From: Ptychodera flava
Lineage: Eukaryota; Hemichordata; Enteropneusta; Ptychoderidae
Direction of reading: 5' to 3'
Length of the DNA: 64,000 bases
Assembly (NCBI RefSeq): GCF_041260155.1
Contig: NC_091931.1
Location: forward strand, 8,785,861-8,849,860
Part shown: positions 6,001 through 62,930 of the stretch, piece after piece
Position numbering within the stretch: position 1 is the first letter of the stretch
Layout of the letters: the number at the start of each line of letters is the position of its first letter
Translations under genes and position numbers: made by a program
Notes under the pieces: model-generated
What the model saw: the letters and a program-made list of their open reading frames with translations, nothing else
Told to the model about the DNA's origin: nothing
Database searches by the model: none

Positions 6001-8558
6001 TTAATGAAAATATCATGAAAAATATCATGAAACGTTGCTGCTGTTGGCCCTGTCACTTGATGCAGCAGCATCAACATATACGGCAAAAAGAAAAAAATAT
6101 TATTTTGTTCTCTTATTCCAGGATGGTACAGTTGTGCAATTTAAGATAAAAAGGCATACACCTTTAAAGAAACTTATGAACGCATATTGTGATAGGCAGG
6201 TAAGTGTAACTCAATAGTATTTGTATGTTCTTTATGTGGTCTTGCATGACTATGGTAATGTACCTTAGGTTAATATACCTGGTGTGCCGACAGTGGTGGT
6301 ACATATTATACGGTCAATACCATCACCTCACTTTCTGTCCTCCCAAACTGTTTTTAGTGTGTGAGTTTAGAGACAAACCATCACAAGTGTTGGTCCTTAT
6401 CTTCAGCCAAAACTTGCTTTTCATTGTTGGCACAAAAGGTGTACTGACTCTAATAATTTCTGCAAGTGCTTGTAGTGTACAAAGAAGAAATGACAAAATT
6501 CTGTGTAAAGTTATAGGAAGTGCTCCATCTTATGCCAGTGGTTGAGAAGTATGCTAATGTGTGGGTACAGGAACCAGTGAATTTTCCTTCCGAGCAGAAA
6601 GCCATTAGGGTTGTAAACATGTGAAATGTCATGTGACTTATTACTGCTGTTAGATATTGAATTCTAAGCATCTAGACAGCTTTAAGAAGACAACAGACAT
6701 TTAATTTATGATATGACAAAGGAGTGCTTAGATTTTGACTTCAAAAGAATTGAGATAACGTAGGGATGTGGAGGGGAGGAAGGGTGAAAGATTGGTCACA
6801 GAACTGAAGTATTACTGATGGCTAGGTTTTAAAACTTTCTTTCTTCTTTATTTTGCTAACTTCTTGTCTTAGGGTCTTCGGCGGAATGCAATTAGGTTTA
6901 CATTTGATGGCAATCCAATCAATGAAGAGGACACTCCATCACAGGTGAGACGGCATTTATGATATTTTCATTAATTTACCAGGATTTATTCAATAAGGCA
7001 CACTCATCACTTGATACTGTCGCTGTTTTTATGATTTGTGTAAGCCACTTTCAGTGTAATTGCATGCCCATTTGTATCTAAGTGAAAATGTTGTCATGTC
7101 TCGAAAAGCATACTGTTGTATATTGTTATGTGTTAATACTGGTACCATATAAAGTTGTGTATAAATGTCTAAGTTGACAGAACGTAATCTTGTACATAAG
7201 TAGGGTTGTGATCAAAGTAAGTTATGCTGTCTTAGCTTATGTTTGCTAGTTCTTGCAAGAGATGGTAATGCATTTCCCATAACCAGGTTGTTCCCATAAC
7301 ACTGGTACTTTGCAAGGACATACTTAGACTTGGTTCAAGTCTGTGATTTGTGAATGTTTGAGTGGAGTTAACGCAATGATTTGTATTCTGCTTTCATGTG
7401 AAACGCGCGCGTGAGTGGACGCGATGAGTGGAGTGAACGCTATACAGCGGAGTTTCACCCGGAATCACAGACTTGGCTTCTTGCAGGGTTTGCGTTGCTA
7501 TAAATTATTCATGAGATGACGTTTTCTTTACTCATATATTATTCATAAGATGACATTGCTAAATTTTACACATTAGGAGGAGTTACCAATTGACCCAAAC
7601 GAGACGTGCATAAAACTCACATGGCGTTGTTGACAAAATGTCGAGTGCGATCACTCCCACAAAAGTCAGCACGACCTCTGTTCTATCACCGAAAACGCGT
7701 TGAAAATATCTGTGTTGTTTGTGGGGCCCATGTTACAAAATGCGAAAATCGTGGCCGGTTATTCAAGGATGGAAAAAGACACCGTCCTTCCAGTTGTAGC
7801 CTCTTCTCTTACGTGCCCAAAGCGATGGAAATCAAAACAATGTGGAGCGACTTCGTATGTCAGTGATTTTCCGCTGCCGGTTGGTGCGCAGACGAACACA
7901 TCTTTTCCCTCAATGTAACTCTCAACAAGCTTTCTTTGGTAATCTCGCATGATTAGCGGTGGTCGACCGATCAGTTGTAAAACGCGGTTGATGTACGAAC
8001 TTGATGCCATTATTCGCCCCGATATAAAACGTACTCGATGTCTTGCTTTGCACGGAGATGACAACAAACTTTTTAATGCATGCAGAGGTTTATTAGTAAG
8101 CGTTCTTCTTATTGGCCAGAATAACGGCGGGGGCTGTCAATCATTTGTATTTGCTCTACGTCACTGTGTACACAGTCCGTCTCACCGCCTGTACTTTGCA
8201 AGAAGTCCAAGTCGGTGAATCCGGCAGAAACTAACTCACTACTGCGCAGACTCAAACGTGACGCATTCAATCGCTGGGAAAACCTGGCCCGAGCTGCCAA
8301 ATTCCGGATAGGTTTGTACGAAATAGGAGAGACACAAGAGAAACTATTATAAATGATTTTATTTTTTTAAAATTCATCGACTTGAACCAAGTCTAGGACA
8401 TACAGTGCGTAATAAAAATTGTTTGATTTCATGTGAATACTTTTTCAAAGTGTGACGCAAAAACTTAATTTTTTTGAAATTTTTTTGCCTTTCAGCTTGA
8501 GATGGAAGATGATGATATCATTGATGTATTCCAACAGCAAATTGGAGGCCACACATAA
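3097..8558 (+). CDS. SUMO: Small ubiquitin-like modifier (SUMO2/3 type) precursor, five exons, 94 aa
   Basis: Coding exons are 3097-3114, 3988-4041, 6122-6199, 6873-6944 and 8496-8558. All junctions are phase 0 with GT/AG borders and together give 95 codons including TAA. The protein begins MSEDKKDVKPEGG, has the ubiquitin fold core (INLKV, then [20 protein letters not shown]), the acidic [14 protein letters not shown] segment, and ends GG-HT. SUMO proteases would cut after GG (residues 91-92) to expose the glycine that is conjugated to lysines of mostly nuclear targets. Residues 8-11 (VKPE) fit the psi-K-x-E motif used for SUMO2/3 chains. Length and exon layout match the family (human SUMO2 is 95 aa). 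The start sits in AAAAATGTC. Confidence is high; only the SUMO2 versus SUMO3 assignment is open. Confidence 0.96.
3520..3659. repeat. Short inverted-repeat element in SUMO intron 1
   Basis: GACTGAAGATTAGCGGACA (3520-3538) is repeated inverted as TGTCCACTAATCTTCAGTC (3641-3659), with 18 of 19 positions matching. The 140 bp unit resembles a MITE. The rest of intron 1 (3115-3987) shows no other structure that I can support. Confidence 0.5.
4042..6121 (+). other. SUMO intron 2
   Basis: AT-rich intron with GTGAGG donor and TTCCAG acceptor. Apart from the palindrome at 4147-4185 I see no gene, repeat array or RNA gene in it. The short open frames inside are not supported by homology or splice structure. 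Confidence 0.6.
4147..4185. repeat. Near-perfect palindrome of the CGGTCCCTCCAC motif
   Basis: AACACGGTCCCTCCACAAA is followed after one base by its exact reverse complement, giving 19 bp arms. The same word occurs at about 25577-25595, and a variant (CCCTCCGTGGAGGGACGGTG) occurs near 46394-46432. It looks like fused or solo terminal inverted repeats of a transposon family. Confidence 0.65.
7316..8403. mobile_element. DNA transposon with 8-bp target duplication in SUMO intron 4
   Basis: The element runs 7324-8395. TAGACTTGGTTCAAGTC at the left end is matched by its exact inverse GACTTGAACCAAGTCTA (8379-8395). The 8-bp sequence GGACATAC flanks both sides (7316-7323 and 8396-8403), a clean target-site duplication. 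The interior is more GC-rich than the intron, with CpG-rich stretches. It contains a helicase-like fragment on the minus strand but no transposase that I can recognise. An 8-bp duplication suits hAT or a similar superfamily. Superfamily assignment is not possible from these ends alone. Confidence 0.85.
7759..8067 (-). pseudogene. RecQ/DEAD-like helicase N-terminal fragment inside the transposon
   Basis: The minus strand reads a Q-motif-like [19 protein letters not shown] followed by a Walker A motif APTGSGKS and LTYEVAP. This is the usual order of motif 0 and motif I in RecQ/superfamily 2 helicases. A splice donor consensus follows HRFGH (CAC|GTAAGA, exon end about 7813). After it the frame runs to a stop, and no motif II (DEAD/DEAH) or later motif is visible. 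The frame lies wholly within the transposon ends, so it is either captured host gene sequence or a remnant of the element's own enzyme. It is not a complete gene. Confidence 0.7.
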
Positions 8559-11506: not shown

Positions 11507-13245
11507 TTACAACTCTGGCAGAAAAATGGAAAACATTTTTTTTAGCCTCGCCATAAATAAGTTTTTTTTAAATAAGATCGGCTTTATTTCTTCAGACATT
11601 AAACATACAACTGATCGTAAGTGATTTACAGGTGATTTATAAACTCCGAAATAATTCTGTTCTCTTGACATAATTAATGTAATATAATTCCTCAATCAAT
11701 AAACTTGTCACGTTGTTTTGTTTTAAAATTCTTGCCTTGTATACTGAAAAAGTGCCAACCATAATTATCATATTCAAGGCTTCAAACTTAGGCATACTTA
11801 GAAAATAACCATATAACATGTTTCCATCGCATGTTTAAACTGGATATCGTATGTTTTGTTAAGGGCCCGAAAAACAGTCACCCAAAATTGCTTTACTCGT
11901 GCACATTCAAAAAGAAAATGTTCACAGTCTTCAAGAGAAATACATTGCTCACACATTGGAGAAGGTTTCTTCTTCCATCTAAATAAATTTGATCTGTGAG
12001 GTAGTTTGTCATACAACAGAAACAAATTAAACTCAGCGATTTTCTTGATTGTCATGTTTTTCACCTTGCTTGACCATATCAGCTGCCAACTGGCACACTG
12101 ACCAATTCTGTTTTCCCACACTGTTTTTGCATACGATGTCCCCACACGTCTCATCAAAATGTTCCAGTAAAAATCTTTACAAGAGAACATATAAACGTCT
12201 ACATATTTTCCTTGGTGATTCTGTTTCAAAATAGTTTTTCTTTGTCGATTTACCACTAAGTTAGTTCTTAGAGTTCTCATACATTGCATCCATTGATATG
12301 GAATAGCTTTCTTTAGCTTTATATACTGTATAATCCAATTTCTTTTTTTCTGCAATCTATTCAAAAGATCACATTGCTGAATGAAATGACCATTGGTAAA
12401 TAAATCAGAAATATACATAAAACCAGCATCCATCCAATCAGTAAAAAAATAAAGGCTGATTATTTACTGTAATGTTATGGTTGCCCCAAATTTTTTGCTC
12501 GCCCACTGTATTTGGCGTTAACTCTATTTTACAGTCATTTATAACAATTTCAGACCAACTATCAAGGACACTTGCATAGAAAGTCGGTAGTTTTTTTGTT
12601 ACATATTTCAAGCATTTTTTATCAAAATTGTATGTAAAAACATCACTGATACCACGGAATTTTTCAAAATAATAATCAATGACTACTTTCCATGTCTCAT
12701 TTCCGCTATTCACAAGCATCTTCATCCATCCGCATTTCAATGCTTTTATATTTGAACTTATATCTATCATTTGTATACCTCCCTGTTCAAATTTATTCCA
12801 AGTAATTTCTTTCCGAATTTTACCCTTTTTCCCGCTCCATAAAAAATTATAAAATATTTTATTTAATCTCACTACTACGTCTTTTGGTGTATCAATCATA
12901 GACGCAATATAGGTGATTTTGGAAAAAGCAAGGTTCTTCAAATTGTTATTTTCCCAAATAAGGATAAGTATCTTTTCTTCCAACCGTTCAGTAATGCCTC
13001 TATTTTATCTAACTTATTATCCCAATTTCATGATCTCACCTCCTTTTGTCATGACCAAAATATATTCCCAAAGCTTTTATTGGCTTTTTAGGCCATGGGA
13101 TAAGGCCTATATTATCCTTCTTTTTCCAGGGCCCTAATTTTAACCCTTCCGTTTTGTCTCTATTTAGTTTTAGCCCAGAGTACTTTCCATATTGATCAAT
13201 GATGTTGAGAACTCGAGCCAAGGATTTTACATTCTCTATGTACAC
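11507..13245 (-). mobile_element. 5'-truncated, frameshifted LINE (L1/Tx1-like non-LTR retrotransposon)
   Basis: Successive minus-strand frames match the second half of an L1/Tx1-type ORF2. 13245-13036 reads the end of the reverse transcriptase (YSGLKLNRDKTEGL, then IKALGIYFG). 12983-12438 reads the post-RT region (FYNFLWSGKKGKIRKEITW, then QGGIQMIDI). 12433-11798 reads the C-terminal region with the zinc-knuckle-like MCEQCISLEDCEHFLFEC. Frames then continue to about 11507. At least two frameshifts and several stops separate the segments, so the copy is dead. The 5' half (endonuclease and RT core) is absent, as expected of 5' truncation. Confidence 0.85.
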
Positions 13246-13888: not shown

Positions 13889-14080
13889 TTCGCTGATAAT
13901 ATAATGGAAATAACAGACTCCGCTCTGACAATTAACATTTATTTATGGGCACGGGCTCGAGGAAAGCCAAATTAACAGGCTCGACAAGCCTTGCCGTTAA
14001 TTTTTGGCTTTCCTCTTGCCCTTGCCTACAAATAAACGTTAATGGTCAGCACGTCGTCCGTTATTTCTATAATATTTAAG
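13889..14080. repeat. Large hairpin element 1
   Basis: The left arm (about 13890-13975) and right arm (about 13980-14076) are imperfect reverse complements. Shared words are GGAAATAAC, TTAACRTTTATTT, GGAAAGCCAAA and TTAATTTTTGGCTTTCC, with a short turn at about 13975-13985. It resembles a fold-back MITE. A plus-strand open frame crossing the arm is not a gene. Confidence 0.65.
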
Positions 14081-14223
14081 CAATAAAGCACACCCAGTGA
14101 TGGTATACCACGAGATTTTGACCTGTTCACGACATATATGCACGAGGGACAGCGAGTGCATATATGAAGTGAAATGGTCAAAATCGAGTGGTATACCGTC
14201 GCTGGGTGTGATTTATTGCTATT
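14080..14223. repeat. Large hairpin element 2
   Basis: AGCAATAAAGCACACCCAGTG at the left is mirrored by CGCTGGGTGTGATTTATTGCT at the right. Further inside, GGTATACCAC with TTTTGACC pairs with GGTCAAAA and GTGGTATACC, and a central CATATATGCACGAGG pairs with GAGTGCATATATG. It forms an almost complete stem of about 70 bp. A later TATATCATAACAGTATATTG and inverted CAATATACTGGTATGATATA (14223-14393) suggest it is nested in a further inverted pair. Confidence 0.7.
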
Positions 14224-14780
14224 ATATCATAACAGTATATTGAAACTCTGGCGCGGAACGTCATAAAAGGACTTTTCCTCAAGCTGAGAGCTAGTGCGCA
14301 TGCCAGCCTTGGTATATTGCCAATATACCACGGTTCTTTTCGCACCAATCAGATCGCTGTATTTGCACCATCAATATACTGGTATGATATAATACACCGT
14401 ATACAATATGCTATAAGCAGTGTCATTGTTTCTAGATAGACACTTATTTTGAAATAGACCTCGGCAAATAAGCCACCTCTTCACAAAGTTTGGCAGCTTT
14501 TTAGTCCCCTGCATGCCTATAAGTGGTTTTATAGAACATAATGTTCTTCAAAGCAGTGCCACCAGGTTGAGATAAGTCCAGTGGTCAGACAAGTCTGCCT
14601 GGGGTGTTGGCATTCAATATGGTTAGTTACAACACAATGGAAGTTGTCCAAGGGACCTCTATGATTTCAAATCTACAGGTATTTGCATGAATTAGCATTC
14701 CCTAGTTTCACTTGTAGATTTGCGTACCCATATTGAAGAAGGTATGGTTTGTTGTAGCTGAATTCAAGACAAACACAAGT
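14224..14780. other. Spacer between hairpins and MBT-gene 3' end
   Basis: Apart from the outer inverted words near 14223-14393 I see no gene or repeat array here. Confidence 0.4.
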
Positions 14781-20195: not shown

Positions 20196-40007
<19,812 letters not shown>

Positions 40008-40744: not shown

Positions 40745-52007
<11,263 letters not shown>

Positions 52008-55030: not shown

Positions 55031-55035
55031 TGTAC

Positions 55036-55382
55036 CCCAGTGCTGCTAACTTTCGATGTTTTTTTTTTTCATTATTTTTATTTTATAAATCAATTGCAAC
55101 TTCTTATTCTACTCCCCAAATAATGTTGAAACACCCACTATTTAGCTTGTCAACTTAGCGTCTATATGTGTAAAATGTATGGTTATTGTTTACATTTGAA
55201 TTCTAGTCCGGACCAGAAGTTACTTTTCAACAATAACAATGCACTTTACAACCATAGGGGCTGAGTTGACAAGCTGGATACTGTGTATATCAACATTCTT
55301 TGGGGAGAAGAACAAGGAAGTATGGTTCACATTCAAATAAAAATGGTGACATTATCATCAAAAGTTAGCAGCACTGGGGCGT
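55036..55382. repeat. Fold-back element of about 345 bp
   Basis: CCCAGTGCTGCTAACTTT at the left end is exactly inverted at AAAGTTAGCAGCACTGGG on the right. The arms also share CTCCCCAAAnAATGTTGA, AGCTTGTCAACT and GGTTATTGTT against their inverses, so each arm is about 165-170 bp with a small centre near 55205-55215. No coding content. Confidence 0.75.
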
Positions 55383-56176
55383 CAAAGAAGACCGGAGCAT
55401 TTCGGTGTTGTGCCAGTAAGCGTATCTGTGTAACGTTATCCTGCATATCTTCAATCTCCTACTATCCAGTAGACGTATAACATTTTGTTCAATTTAATAG
55501 CAGGCCAGAGAAGAATGAAGACGTTGCAGAAAGTTTAACGCAGACATAATGGTTAAAAAAGATAAAAATTCTTGAAGTGTGAGTATTAGTACATACAAAT
55601 TCGAGATTCTTGGTATTTATATGTATTCGTGTACGTGAAACATGACGCTGACAAATAAAATTGAGGACATGTGTTTGTTGTCTCGATTGACTTCTAAACT
55701 ATCTGTTCGGAGACTTATCTGAGCTACAGGGTACCGTTTAACCCTATCCGTACGTGACAAAGTTAATATGATCGGAAATGATAAAATGTAATCGAATTAT
55801 TGTCTCCAAAGGAAAGAGTAGGACCGTTTGAATTCTCCATGGCCGCGGACAGTAATTTTCAGAAAGTTAAGATTCCTCTGCCAACCTCTGATACATTCTA
55901 AATTAGTTCACTAAATGTAATAAAGAAGTATATAAACCAACACCGCGCAAAATCCACCGCCTCATTCGATAATTTCAGAGGCCATTTTAGAGACACACTT
56001 TGCTGGATAAAAATACAGGGCTTTCCACGAATTAAAAAAGTCTATAAATTTACATCTTGCAAGATAAAATGGTAAACTCTATGTCTTTTTACAGATGCAA
56101 AAGGGAGAATACATACATTGTACTGCTGCTGATAATCTTTGAGTCATATCTGAGTGTTGTTATGGTTACCATGATA
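55383..56176. other. Intergenic sequence, no supported feature
   Basis: No gene, array or inverted repeat that I can support. Confidence 0.4.
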
Positions 56177-58964
56177 GTGACAGTTGTAACCTCCACAAAT
56201 GTAATAATCTCCACAAATGTAATATCAACCACAATTGTAATAAAATGCACCCATAAATGTAATATCGCCCATAAATGTAACAAAAATCAACCATAAATGT
56301 AATAAAAACTTCAACCACAAATGTAATAAATGGTAACCATAAATGTTATAAAAAAATCACCCATAAATGTAATACTTGTCAACCATAAATGTAATAAATC
56401 TATTTTGTCGTTGAAATTGAGGAATTAGCCCTTAAATATTAATCTATGTAATAAGTAAAGCAACTCCACACATTATTCATTTCTTAATTGTTTGCGTTTA
56501 GTGTGTTTTGCATATTTGAAAGTGTATTTTACGTTTCCCTGTTTTGTGTACAGAACTGATTGGTCATGGCGAGACACAGCTGTAATCTGAACGTCAGTGC
56601 AGTCTCTACTCCAGAGTGGGGAAGACTGTATAACACTTCGATCCTTTAACACCGTTTTTTCGAAAATTGCCGTACTTTCTTAATCAATTGCCTCAAATTC
56701 GTCTTCAGTGGATAAATTGTGTGGAATAATCGATAGATTGTCTGTATTCCTATGTTGTCCCACTTAAAGTTTGTTCCTTCACTAGGGATGCCAGGATATC
56801 TAATTGTGTTCTACTGTGTTCAAGGTAGTGTTCGTATTGTTTTTTAGCTACTATAGACTATAGTCTATGGAAGCTATTGGGATGGGTATCCGTCCGGCGT
56901 CCGGCGTCAGTCTGTATGTATGTATGTATGTATGTATGTATGTATGTATGTATGTATGTCCGTTTGTGAGGCGTCCGTCCACTCAAATATCTTGAGAACC
57001 GTAGTACTTACTGATTTGATATTTGTTGTGTAGATGAAAAATATGATTTTGAGAAACTATTTTTTTAATTTTTTGATATTGTTGAAAATAGGCAAATTAA
57101 TGCCAAAAAAGGTGTTTTTGGTAAAAAATCTTCTTCTTCATAACCGCTGGTCAGACAGCTTTGTTATTTGGTATACAGGTCCCTAGGGGTAACCCAACTT
57201 AGATTTGTTCAAATTGTGATGAAATATGCAAATGTGTATTTTTAAGGAATTTTTTTGTCATTTTTGGTCAAAATTTGACTTACATTGTATGTAATTCTTG
57301 TACTGTATAAACCCTATCAATTCACCCAGAAAAAAATAATATTATTTTAAATAATTGAATTAATAAGGAAATCATCAAAGCCAAAATAATTTTAGTGTGG
57401 AATTATCAGAAAGTTCAACTTTTTTTGACAGTTCATAGTGAAATGCTTACCATCTTGGAGGATTAAAACATGTAAAGGCAACTTTCCTGAATCCCAACTT
57501 TGATATATTCTGAACCACCATTTATGTTATCTAAAAGAAATTGCTCATAATAGTTTGTCATGATAGGGTGGTCAAATAAATAGAGATAGAGAAAGTTCTA
57601 ATTTTCATTTATGGTTGACTTGGTAAGGATAAAAGAAGATTACTTTTTGAGGAAAAAAATTGAGTGATCAATTAAAAGAGTGGTCAAAGTAATAGGGTTT
57701 TTATGGTAAAGCTGAGCTGTAAGATTCCTCGTGCTATTTATAGCAATTATGCAATCTGTGTAAACAGTGCAATGAAATTGTAACATGATTCCTTATAGTG
57801 CTTTTTATGACCTTGAACTTCTTAAGTTACAAACATTTGTCTCTTCAGTGTGCTTTCTCTGAGTACGTACAGTCTCAACTGATTCAACAGAACTTACTTA
57901 CAATGTTAATTTGAAAGTTAAAATGTGCTTGGTTAATAGGATGAAAATACTCATATTAAAAGATAACCAGCTGAAGATTCTTTATAACCTGACAGATATG
58001 CTGTTTTATTATGACGTAAATCTTGATTTAAGCAAGTCTTGTTTACTTTAATTAGAATGTAATTAACTCTCGTTTATTTGCTATTATAGACTAATATAGT
58101 CTCATGAAATATGCAAATCTGTATTTTTAGGGAATTTTTTTCCATTTTTGGTCAGGCCATCCTGAAATGAGCTATCAAAGATATCCACCTTCTTCATCAA
58201 TACATGTGTCACAAAAGGTTATTCTCTACAGAACACAGCAGAGCTCTGTCATCTGTTGAGTCGCTTGTTTTTTTAAAACCGCTGGTCAGACAGCTTTAAT
58301 ATTTGGTTTACATGTCCCTAGGATGACCTTAGTGAGATCATTTCCTACAGTCAGGAAATACTTAATTTTGTATCCATGTCTATAGTAGCTTCAGGGACTT
58401 TGGCCCTATGTTTACTAGATTGAAATATATGTTCTCGTCAACATGTTTTGTGTCGTAAGTTTCTGTTATAAGGTTTTATGTTTCTCTGTTATTTGTTCTG
58501 AGTCATCTGTCATAAACTTTGTGTGGTATCACTGGTTGACGAGTTATTTTGACGCTTCCTTATTATGTAATTATCAGTGTCTAGAACTGCTGTTCCACTT
58601 CCATTATCTAACGGTTTGATCAGTACCTCGCCGTTTTCTGATAGCGATCTCAAAGTATTCTATTCTGTGTTTCGGAAAGGAAACCTAGTTTCAGGAAAGT
58701 ATGCAATAACATTACACTAGTCTTATTAAAGTTATCATTTACTCAGGGCATTGATAAACAAATGATCACATATGCAAGTTCAAGTTTATTACATTTATGG
58801 TTGAGTTTTATTACATTTATGGTTAATTTGTGTATTACATTTGTGGTTGCGGGTTGTTACATTTATGGTTGACTATTTTGTTACATTTGTGGTTGATTTT
58901 ATTACAATTGTGGTTGATATTACATTTGTGGAGATTATTACATTGTGGAGGTTACAACAGTCAC
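56177..58964. mobile_element. 2.8 kb transposon with iterated subterminal motif, interrupted by a nested repeat
   Basis: The ends GTGACAGTTGTAACCTCCAC and the inverse of GTGGAGGTTACAACAGTCAC form terminal inverted repeats. They continue inward as arrays of a 14-bp core, CCAYAAATGTAATA, at 17-24 bp spacing. There are ten units at 56190-56399 and eight inverted units at about 58790-58950. The outermost three units keep the same order and spacers at both ends. The interior includes the 1.57 kb copy B of another repeat (56843-58413), leaving about 0.8 kb of own internal sequence. No transposase is recognised, so it is probably non-autonomous. Confidence 0.75.
56843..58413 (+). mobile_element. 1.57 kb repeat, copy B
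   Basis: Matches the reverse complement of 27971-29516 end to end. It begins TTTTAGCTACTATAGACTAT, carries a (TATG)n run (56917-56959) and the CAGCTTTGTTATTTGGTATA module twice. It ends GGGACTTTGGCCCTATGTTT. It is nested inside the iterated-motif transposon, so it inserted after that element. Confidence 0.8.
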
Positions 58965-59846
58965 TCCTTTCTTTAAAAGCAATGGTGAATGTAGAATATG
59001 CACCGGGGACAGATATTCCGACTCTCAAAATTTTCCAAAATTCTTTTCTGATCTACCGCTCGGGGGGAGGGGGGTTCATTTTAAAGTTCATTGACTAAGA
59101 AAAATGTTTGCTGTCCTAGTCTTTCGAAAATCGACAATTTAATTTCACTCAATACAGTTAACGCATGGGTCACTAAAATGTAAGTCTTTTTACTTTCGAG
59201 GCACATACTACCTTAAAAGGTATAGACAGTAACAGAGCGATGTCGCATTAACTTCATAAACACAATATCGTAGCATGACACTGAGTGATGTTCATGTTGG
59301 ATGTCTTTTTTCATAGCCATCGTGGAACGAGAATATAAAAGACGATACTTCACAAACAAAGTATCGCAATTACTACATTGTTTCATTTGGAGATTGAAGA
59401 ATGATGAATAGTGTGAATGAGAACTCTGCTATGAACCATTTTCATAGATGAAACAAAACCCAGTTAAACACTATAGGTCTTTCATAAAAGGGTAGGATCA
59501 GTAGGAACTACGTCCACAAGAAAGGATGGGAAGGACTTCGTGATTACCAAAAAACCAATTTCTAAAACCTGGGGCAGGAATTGATTTGAAGCTGATAAAA
59601 GTCACACGGTGTATTATTTTGAAAGATCATAATAGTGTTTTGATCTAAAATTCGATAATATTTGAATCGTTCACTATTTGAATGATGATCGAGTTATTAG
59701 CTCAGATACTTTCATTCTTTTTCTGACTATGTATGGTAAGTTAGGATGGATGCTCTATACGATTCTGTATTTTGCAATTTCTTGGTTCTTTTAGCTGCCG
59801 CATCTTCTCACTAGTAATGTTGTTTGCTCGTTATATCTTTCAAATG
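58965..59846. other. Intergenic sequence, no supported feature
   Basis: No supported gene or repeat. It probably includes the 3' untranslated region of the minus-strand gene that ends at 59847. Confidence 0.4.
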
Positions 59847-60999: not shown

Positions 61000-62930
61000 A
61001 ACAACTGGCAAAACACAGCCAACATGGTTATTTGTAATGTGTTAAAAATCCGTACAGCGGTAAAGATTTTCGACAGATTCTGTTAAATTTTTTCAATGGG
61101 ATTCTTAATAGTGGCTGTTTTCCTTTGGAATGGGTGAAAGAAATGATAGTTCCTTTATTTAAGAAAGGGAACAGATATTCTGTTGGTAACTATAGGGGTA
61201 TTACATTGCTTCAAATTATCAGTAAAATTGTTTGTAATATCATGTGTACCCGTATCAACATATTTGAAATTCACTGCCCTATTGCGGCCAAAGCTAGCCC
61301 CTGGTTTTAAAAAGCATTTTAGTACGATTGATAGTAATGTTACAGCAATATGGAAATATCTATCAAAACACCAGTCACGTTTGTATTGTGCATTCGTTGA
61401 CTTTGAAGAAGCCTTTGATAAAATAGATCACGACTCCATGTTATATGAATTGTTAAAGTTGGGAATGAAGGAAAAATGTTAAACATTTTGAAGTCTATGT
61501 ATACAAATGTCAAGTCATGTGTAAGAACACCTCATGGCATCACTGAATTCTATAACTGTACTTATGGTGTACAACATGGTTCCGTTCTCTCTCCTCTTTT
61601 ATTCAACCTTTTCATTGATGACATTGGATCATGATATGATAGCATATATGATGATGTTTACGTAGGTATGTTAAAATTATTGTATATTTCCTTTGCCGAC
61701 GATCTATCACTCACGAGTAGTACTGTAATTGGTTTACAGACTCAGAAACAACTTGTTAAACTTTCTTTGTACTGCAAACAGTGAAAGTTAAAAACTAATG
61801 CTACCCAAACAAAAATAGTTGTTTTCAGAAGAGGGGGAAAACTAAAAATACTACAAAAAATGGAATTTGAAAGAGTTTCTGACTTGAATTACGTTGGCTT
61901 AACGTTGTCTTCTACTGGGATCTGGTCAATGTAACAAGAAAATCTTGCCAGACAAGGTAAAAAAGCCACTCACAATATTAAGAAATATTTAAGCAAATTT
62001 AAGAATTTGAATATTAAAATAGTTTTAAGAATATTTGACCAAAAAATCCTCCCTATATTTCATGATGTATCGTTGTGAAATCCGGGGCTTTCACGATGGT
62101 AACGATATAGAACAGGCCCACTTATCTTTTTGTAAATACTTACTTCAGGTTAGCTACATTTCATGTAACTCTGCTGTGAACTGCGTAGGCATTGCTTAAA
62201 AGCGTAAAGACTTCCTCGCATTATCAAATACTGGTTAAAATTATTACATGTAGAAAACAATATAGATACATTAAGCAATGCTACAATTACCAGTTTGAGA
62301 TTGCAGAGAACGGGTTTAATTGCTGAGCCAAACAAGTCAAAGATCTCTTATTTTCATACGGTTTCGGTATAATTTAGAACATGCAGTCAGAATTCAAATA
62401 GACAACACTTGATATAGGCGTTCAACAATGAAGAACAAACATGGAAACATTCAAAGCTAGACACATATCGTTTGTTTAAAAATGATTTAATTGTTGAAAA
62501 ATATCTCAGAGATATCACTCTTGGTGTTTTTAGGAGAGCACTTCGAAAGTCCAATCACAATTAACATATTGAAAGTTCACGAATACAAAAGTTACCTTGA
62601 GCAAATAGACTATGTACGCTATGTGTATTGAACCAAGTTGAAACTGAATTACATTTTTGTCTAGTATGCCCCTTGTATTGTATACCTGAATGTTACAACG
62701 CCTACACTACAAAATTCAAAAGATTAATTAATTCGATCCCAAAATCCTCAAACCCCAATAAATCTATCAAAGTATTTATTTTACAGTCCGTGATTCAGGG
62801 AGACCTCACTCCAGAAGATGTCTGCTTAATGAGATGTATTAGCCCCACATATGTATTCACTTGTATGTATTTTTCATGTTTTGGGGAAAAGGCCAGGGGC
62901 CTATAATACTGAATAAATACGTTATATATA
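61000..62930 (+). mobile_element. Decayed LINE (non-LTR retrotransposon), RT region to 3' end
   Basis: Plus-strand frames in order give reverse transcriptase blocks FPLEWVKEMIVPLFKKGN, NYRGITLLQIISK, YCAFVDFEEAFDKIDHDSM and FADDLSLTSS. These are followed by TKIVVFRRGGK, DLNYVGLTLSSTG and a C-terminal VETELHFCLVCPLY. The frames are broken by many stops and shifts (for example at 61079, 61310 and 61480), so the copy is inactive. The family is a non-LTR clade with the F/Y-x-DD box. It ends with AATAAA at 62913-62918, close to where the homology stops. It sits directly upstream of the unrecognised minus-strand exons. Confidence 0.85.

Follow-up and report, generated by a model that had tools for sequence, protein, structure and literature searches.

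A small DNA transposon in a SUMO intron of the hemichordate Ptychodera flava carries the start of a probable RecQ-like helicase gene

An insertion in a SUMO2/3-like gene

The window analyzed here is a 64,000-nucleotide stretch of the P. flava genome (contig NC_091931.1, positions 8,785,861 to 8,849,860 of the forward strand); all positions below count from its first letter. Two of its exons, which we take to belong to a SUMO2/3-like gene, flank an intron interrupted by an insertion. The intron is the last of this gene, running from the GT at 6945 to the AG at 8495, and its 1,551 bp shrink to approximately 471 bp once the inserted element and a single duplication copy are subtracted. Direct reading of the window gives an element of approximately 1,071 bp whose 17-bp inverted ends are perfect and which is flanked by a direct repeat. 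The features at and around its outer ends are as follows:

6873..6944, plus strand: SUMO2/3-like exon preceding the interrupted intron, ending in DTPSQ at 6944 (from translation)
7315..7323, no strand: left target-site duplication, AGGACATAC, with the 8-bp core GGACATAC at 7316-7323 (direct reading)
7325..7341, plus strand: left terminal inverted repeat, TAGACTTGGTTCAAGTC, perfect over 17 bp
8379..8395, minus strand: right terminal inverted repeat, TAGACTTGGTTCAAGTC, perfect over 17 bp
8395..8403, no strand: right target-site duplication, AGGACATAC, with its 8-bp core at 8396-8403 (direct reading)
8496..8558, plus strand: final SUMO exon with the stop codon, following the interrupted intron (from translation)

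The terminal repeat is itself a near-palindrome (AGACTTG-GTT-CAAGTCT). A single unpaired T at 7324 separates the left duplication copy from the left terminal repeat, and the two flanking copies agree at all 9 positions, 7315-7323 and 8395-8403. The target-site duplication is 8 or 9 bp, and one copy cannot fix which, because base 8395, the last A of the right terminal repeat, can be assigned to that repeat or to the duplication. A duplication of 9–10 bp with one changed base may also be compatible with this single copy.

Scans of the window set this arrangement apart. When up to three mismatches are allowed, the 17-bp end occurs three times in the window, compared with 0.26 expected; the third occurrence, at 46654 and with three mismatches, is probably due to chance. 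We also scanned for perfect inverted arms of at least 14 bp lying 150–6000 bp apart, excluding low-complexity arms, and counted a pair as flanked when direct repeats of 7 bp or longer lay no more than 2 bp from the arms. Of 30 inverted-repeat pairs in the window, the only one so flanked was the present element; 20 windows simulated with a first-order Markov model averaged 2.8 inverted pairs, none of them flanked. No further copies of the element were found within the 64-kb window. The element carries two marks of a TIR (cut-and-paste) DNA transposon, terminal inverted repeats and a target-site duplication. An earlier note on this DNA had described a single insertion with perfect 17-bp inverted ends and an 8-bp duplication in SUMO intron 4. 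The insertion and its ends are well supported by these scans, and the 8-bp sequence is present at both outer edges, but the repeat extends to a perfect 9 bp; the intron is the last of the SUMO gene, its number 4 being tentative.

Since both ends and the duplication are intact, and since the exon that the element carries is open, we infer an insertion age that these features suggest is young. The element differs in composition from its surroundings: its CpG observed/expected ratio is 1.20, whereas 609 overlapping windows outside it average 0.47 and none reaches 1.2 (maximum 1.14). Such a raised value fits either a recent arrival or a promoter-like cargo, and it would also suit a promoter captured from the host, an origin considered below.

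Repeats inside the element ends

A further pair of inverted repeats, 35–36 bp long, lies inside the terminal repeats, one within each end:

7451..7485, plus strand: left subterminal inverted repeat, carrying the GACTTGG core of the terminal inverted repeat (blastn)
8197..8232, minus strand: right subterminal inverted repeat (blastn and alignment)

The two are 86% identical (blastn, E = 1.1e-4), and their alignment scores 49, whereas 200 base-composition shuffles reach no more than 32. They sit 127–161 bp from the left end and 164–199 bp from the right end. The terminal and subterminal repeats that bear GACTTGG may be binding sites for a transposase. Separately, a 19-bp direct repeat beginning TGAGTGGAGTTAACGC occurs at 7359-7377 and 7425-7443 in the left end of the element, and may provide a further protein-binding site.

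The helicase fragment

The minus strand of the element encodes the start of a helicase-like protein, directed inward from the right end:

7813..8010, minus strand: 66-aa exon, presumed to be the first of a RecQ-like helicase gene; contains Walker A (APTGSGKS) and a region resembling motif 0
7807..7812, minus strand: donor-like GTAAGA directly after the helicase exon (consensus match only)

The ATG at 8010 lies approximately 187 bp inside the right subterminal repeat, has A at -3 and G at +4, and opens a frame that runs uninterrupted to the donor-like GTAAGA. Pfam DEAD matches at E = 2.9e-07 (30.8 bits against a curated cut-off of 26), over residues 65-97 only. Among 11 NCBIfam families, recQ_fam ranks first (E = 3.8e-06), its 25.9 bits standing against a full-length cut-off of 219.8. 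Codon usage is only weakly better than the null (7.6%), as judged with a training set of 1053 codons from open reading frames picked by eye, and the predicted fold is of low confidence (mean pLDDT 50.8). Past Walker A the element's frame has none of the helicase motifs, and such a fragment cannot be a working helicase.

Could this frame be a chance match, or a Walker A match of a non-RecQ protein, within an ordinary non-autonomous element? The family-model matches span only some 33–39 residues, and the top entry among 27 PDB sequence matches is MDA5/IFIH1 (27.7 bits), with RecQ5 lower (20.5 bits). Searches of 5.8 billion proteins yielded nothing at E<=0.001 (42 candidates) and one weak match at E = 6.2 (9 candidates); with queries this short, and with no sign of animal relatives among the entries, such negatives are weak evidence and say little. 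Against an accident stand the Pfam DEAD score above its curated cut-off, the first rank of recQ_fam, and an ATG and splice donor in register with the frame. We regard such a chance or non-RecQ match as very improbable. The designation RecQ-like is probably a better guess than RIG-I-like, though short of proof, and the preference for RecQ rests partly on the motif GKSLxY, which we take to be characteristic of it. The Walker A motif and apparent splice donor reported earlier in the cargo are borne out, the latter as a match to consensus, and the similarity to helicases is real; the RecQ-like label is the part that is tempered, by the shortness of the fragment and by its best PDB match.

Pattern searches of viral and prokaryotic sequences added little to this picture. 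In viral contigs, the helicase exon produced 399 pattern matches, which yielded 52 loci, each spanning approximately residues 22-49 around Walker A; the one of the 52 inspected (L001) looks like a phage contig that encodes a helicase itself. The pattern based on the terminal inverted repeat and that based on the subterminal repeat each had zero matches in viral contigs. In prokaryote genome contigs, the terminal-repeat pattern matched once, in Algoriphagus, where approximately 0.5 matches are estimated by chance. We judged the prokaryotic and viral matches irrelevant, in the case of the 52 helicase loci from the one inspected. An Rfam scan of the window returned nothing.

The left-end open reading frame

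A second frame faces inward from the opposite end:

7621..7863, plus strand: ATG-initiated open reading frame, 81 aa, with one CxxC pair; an unproven candidate for the start of a second gene

A TATAAA at 7499 lies 122 bp upstream of it. Its codon score is below the null mean, with 80.6% of 5000 random open reading frames scoring as high, and an ATG-initiated frame of at least 81 codons arises in 19% of 2000 random sequences of 1071 bp. Its predicted fold has low confidence (mean pLDDT 37). It matched no Pfam family, a protein search with 9 candidates found no homologue at E<=10, and of 33 stretches that matched its pattern in viral contigs none was confirmed. One lead came from the bacterial NCBIfam model LIC10235_fam, which matches residues 20-56, the CxxC region, with E = 3.2e-05, its 24.1 bits being far below the model's cut-off of 160; a longer version of the frame matches with E = 8.2e-05. 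None of nine other open reading frames in the window had a match under 0.06, and none of nine frame shuffles under 0.012; three of 14 control genomes, and the single Algoriphagus genome that was searched (E = 0.21), also contain weak matches to the model. Support for a convergent two-gene layout, in which this frame would be a second gene and perhaps a transposase, is consequently mixed; the layout is unproven and we do not claim it. The lead leaves the odds of the origin preferred below unchanged.

Origin of the element

Two origins had been proposed for this element: capture of a host helicase gene by a Pack-type event, or decay of an autonomous element with a helicase of its own. Both survive the present analysis, with anatomy and published precedents favoring the second. 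We lean slightly towards the view that the element is an apparently young, non-autonomous cut-and-paste DNA transposon, derived by internal deletion from a larger autonomous element that itself encoded a RecQ-like helicase. Inside both ends the inverted symmetry extends further, so the right segment would be element sequence to within approximately 187 bp of the helicase ATG. What follows is an inward-facing gene start (ATG, open frame, and donor) rather than a random piece, as expected from a deletion between two element ends. This favored model draws mainly on the anatomy at one end and on published precedent. Four open reading frames of the element, scanned against Pfam, matched no family of transposases, although a transposase would be missing from a deleted copy in any case.

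Under the deletion model, the transposase of a full-length relative would bind the GACTTGG repeats at the terminal and subterminal positions, excise the element, and insert it into the SUMO intron with an 8–9-bp stagger. The inserted element would then be spliced out together with that intron. In the autonomous parent, the helicase may have aided transposition, perhaps by unwinding the ends or helping to repair them.

Pack-type elements (Pack-TYPE, Pack-MULE) are non-autonomous elements with terminal inverted repeats that capture the 5' ends of genes and carry them as cargo. hAT elements, with duplications of 8 bp, and P elements would both suit an 8–9-bp target-site duplication. A non-autonomous element of such an ordinary superfamily (hAT, MuDR, P, Zisupton, or Merlin) could have taken up part of a host RecQ-like helicase gene, namely its promoter, its first exon, and the very beginning of intron 1. 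This would account for an exon and donor kept without the remainder of the gene, and the duplication length fits those given in the consulted parts of published descriptions for MuDR (4–10 bp) and Merlin (8 bp; both PMC10045372) and for Zisupton (8 bp; PMC12730594). No mark of capture edges was found in the element, and the fragment begins close behind the right subterminal repeat and faces inward. Capture from the host is possible, in our view, though rather unlikely. Zisupton, Merlin, and hAT share the 8-bp duplication with the present element; unlike it, they have no connection to a RecQ helicase in the portions of their descriptions available to us.

Helicase-encoding transposons are already known from two groups, so that the present element at most adds one more. 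As far as the available parts of the sources describe them, a RecQ helicase is present in Academ transposons (PMC3627910, PMC6416283), in KolobokH, and, on the complementary strand, in Kolobok-1_CCri (PMC9587614). The same partial account reports KolobokH from fungi only (PMC9587614). Membership of KolobokH was considered and rejected: the Kolobok descriptions give TTAA as the duplicated target, whereas the duplication here is 8–9 bp and reads (A)GGACATAC.

Judged from descriptions in other papers and from the title of its own, AcademH appears to be the closest published lineage. It is a helicase-encoding DNA transposon, the helicase being of RecQ type in descriptions of Academ, and its 9–10-bp duplications (PMC10045372) are compatible with the 9-bp reading of the direct repeat. 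The title of the AcademH paper names animals and fungi, and an expansion of Academ in bivalves is mentioned in the part seen of another report (PMC10294476). These points would allow the deletion model to be narrowed to a derivative of AcademH specifically. On the other side, no Academ transposase was seen in the element, the duplication may also be of 8 bp, and the likeness is drawn from descriptions rather than from AcademH ends or gene order. We consider this narrower assignment unlikely.

A bolder interpretation, which we hold to be quite improbable, is that the element derives from an animal DNA transposon lineage not yet described, marked by 8–9-bp duplications, by ends that are palindromic, and by a double set of inverted repeats. 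In such a lineage, a free-standing RecQ-like helicase gene would start at one end and a gene for a small zinc-knuckle (CxxC) protein, possibly the transposase, at the other. If this were true, transposons of this kind would be a source of the RecQ-like genes annotated in marine invertebrates. No published description of the present element was among the matches listed in the open-licence literature, a scope that leaves Repbase outside. The earlier suggestion that the element could explain the spread of RecQ-like helicases in marine invertebrates is speculative, built on a single fragment, and the titles and abstract openings listed contained nothing that makes this link. As it stands, the record consists of one copy, probably a deleted one. 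Should longer copies exist, the TAGACTTGGTTCAAGTC ends could serve directly as a probe for animal transposons that carry a helicase, and would help to tell which RecQ genes annotated in invertebrates belong to the host and which to transposons.

Other repeats and genes in the window

Several other repeats were observed in the window. A repeat of approximately 1.55 kb, with ends ACATAGGGCCAAAGTCCC and TAGTAGCT, is present as two copies in inverted orientation, at 27971-29518 and 56841-58413, that are 89–92% identical. The second of these copies sits between oppositely oriented minisatellite arrays at about 56176-56398 and 58785-58965. Imperfect palindromes at 165-656, 13898-14231 (two adjacent), and 55035-55379 have 74–78% identity to their own reverse complements and are possibly fold-back or MITE-type elements. 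By reading, LINE-like fragments are located at 11801-13004 (minus strand), with a zf-RVT match just under its cut-off (E = 2.2e-05), and at 61038-62903 (plus strand), where the piece scanned contained no Pfam family. A gene at 20633-30977 (minus strand), presumably Polycomb Scm-like, encodes MBT repeats (PF02820) in two of the three pieces scanned, with SAM detected below its cut-off in the third.
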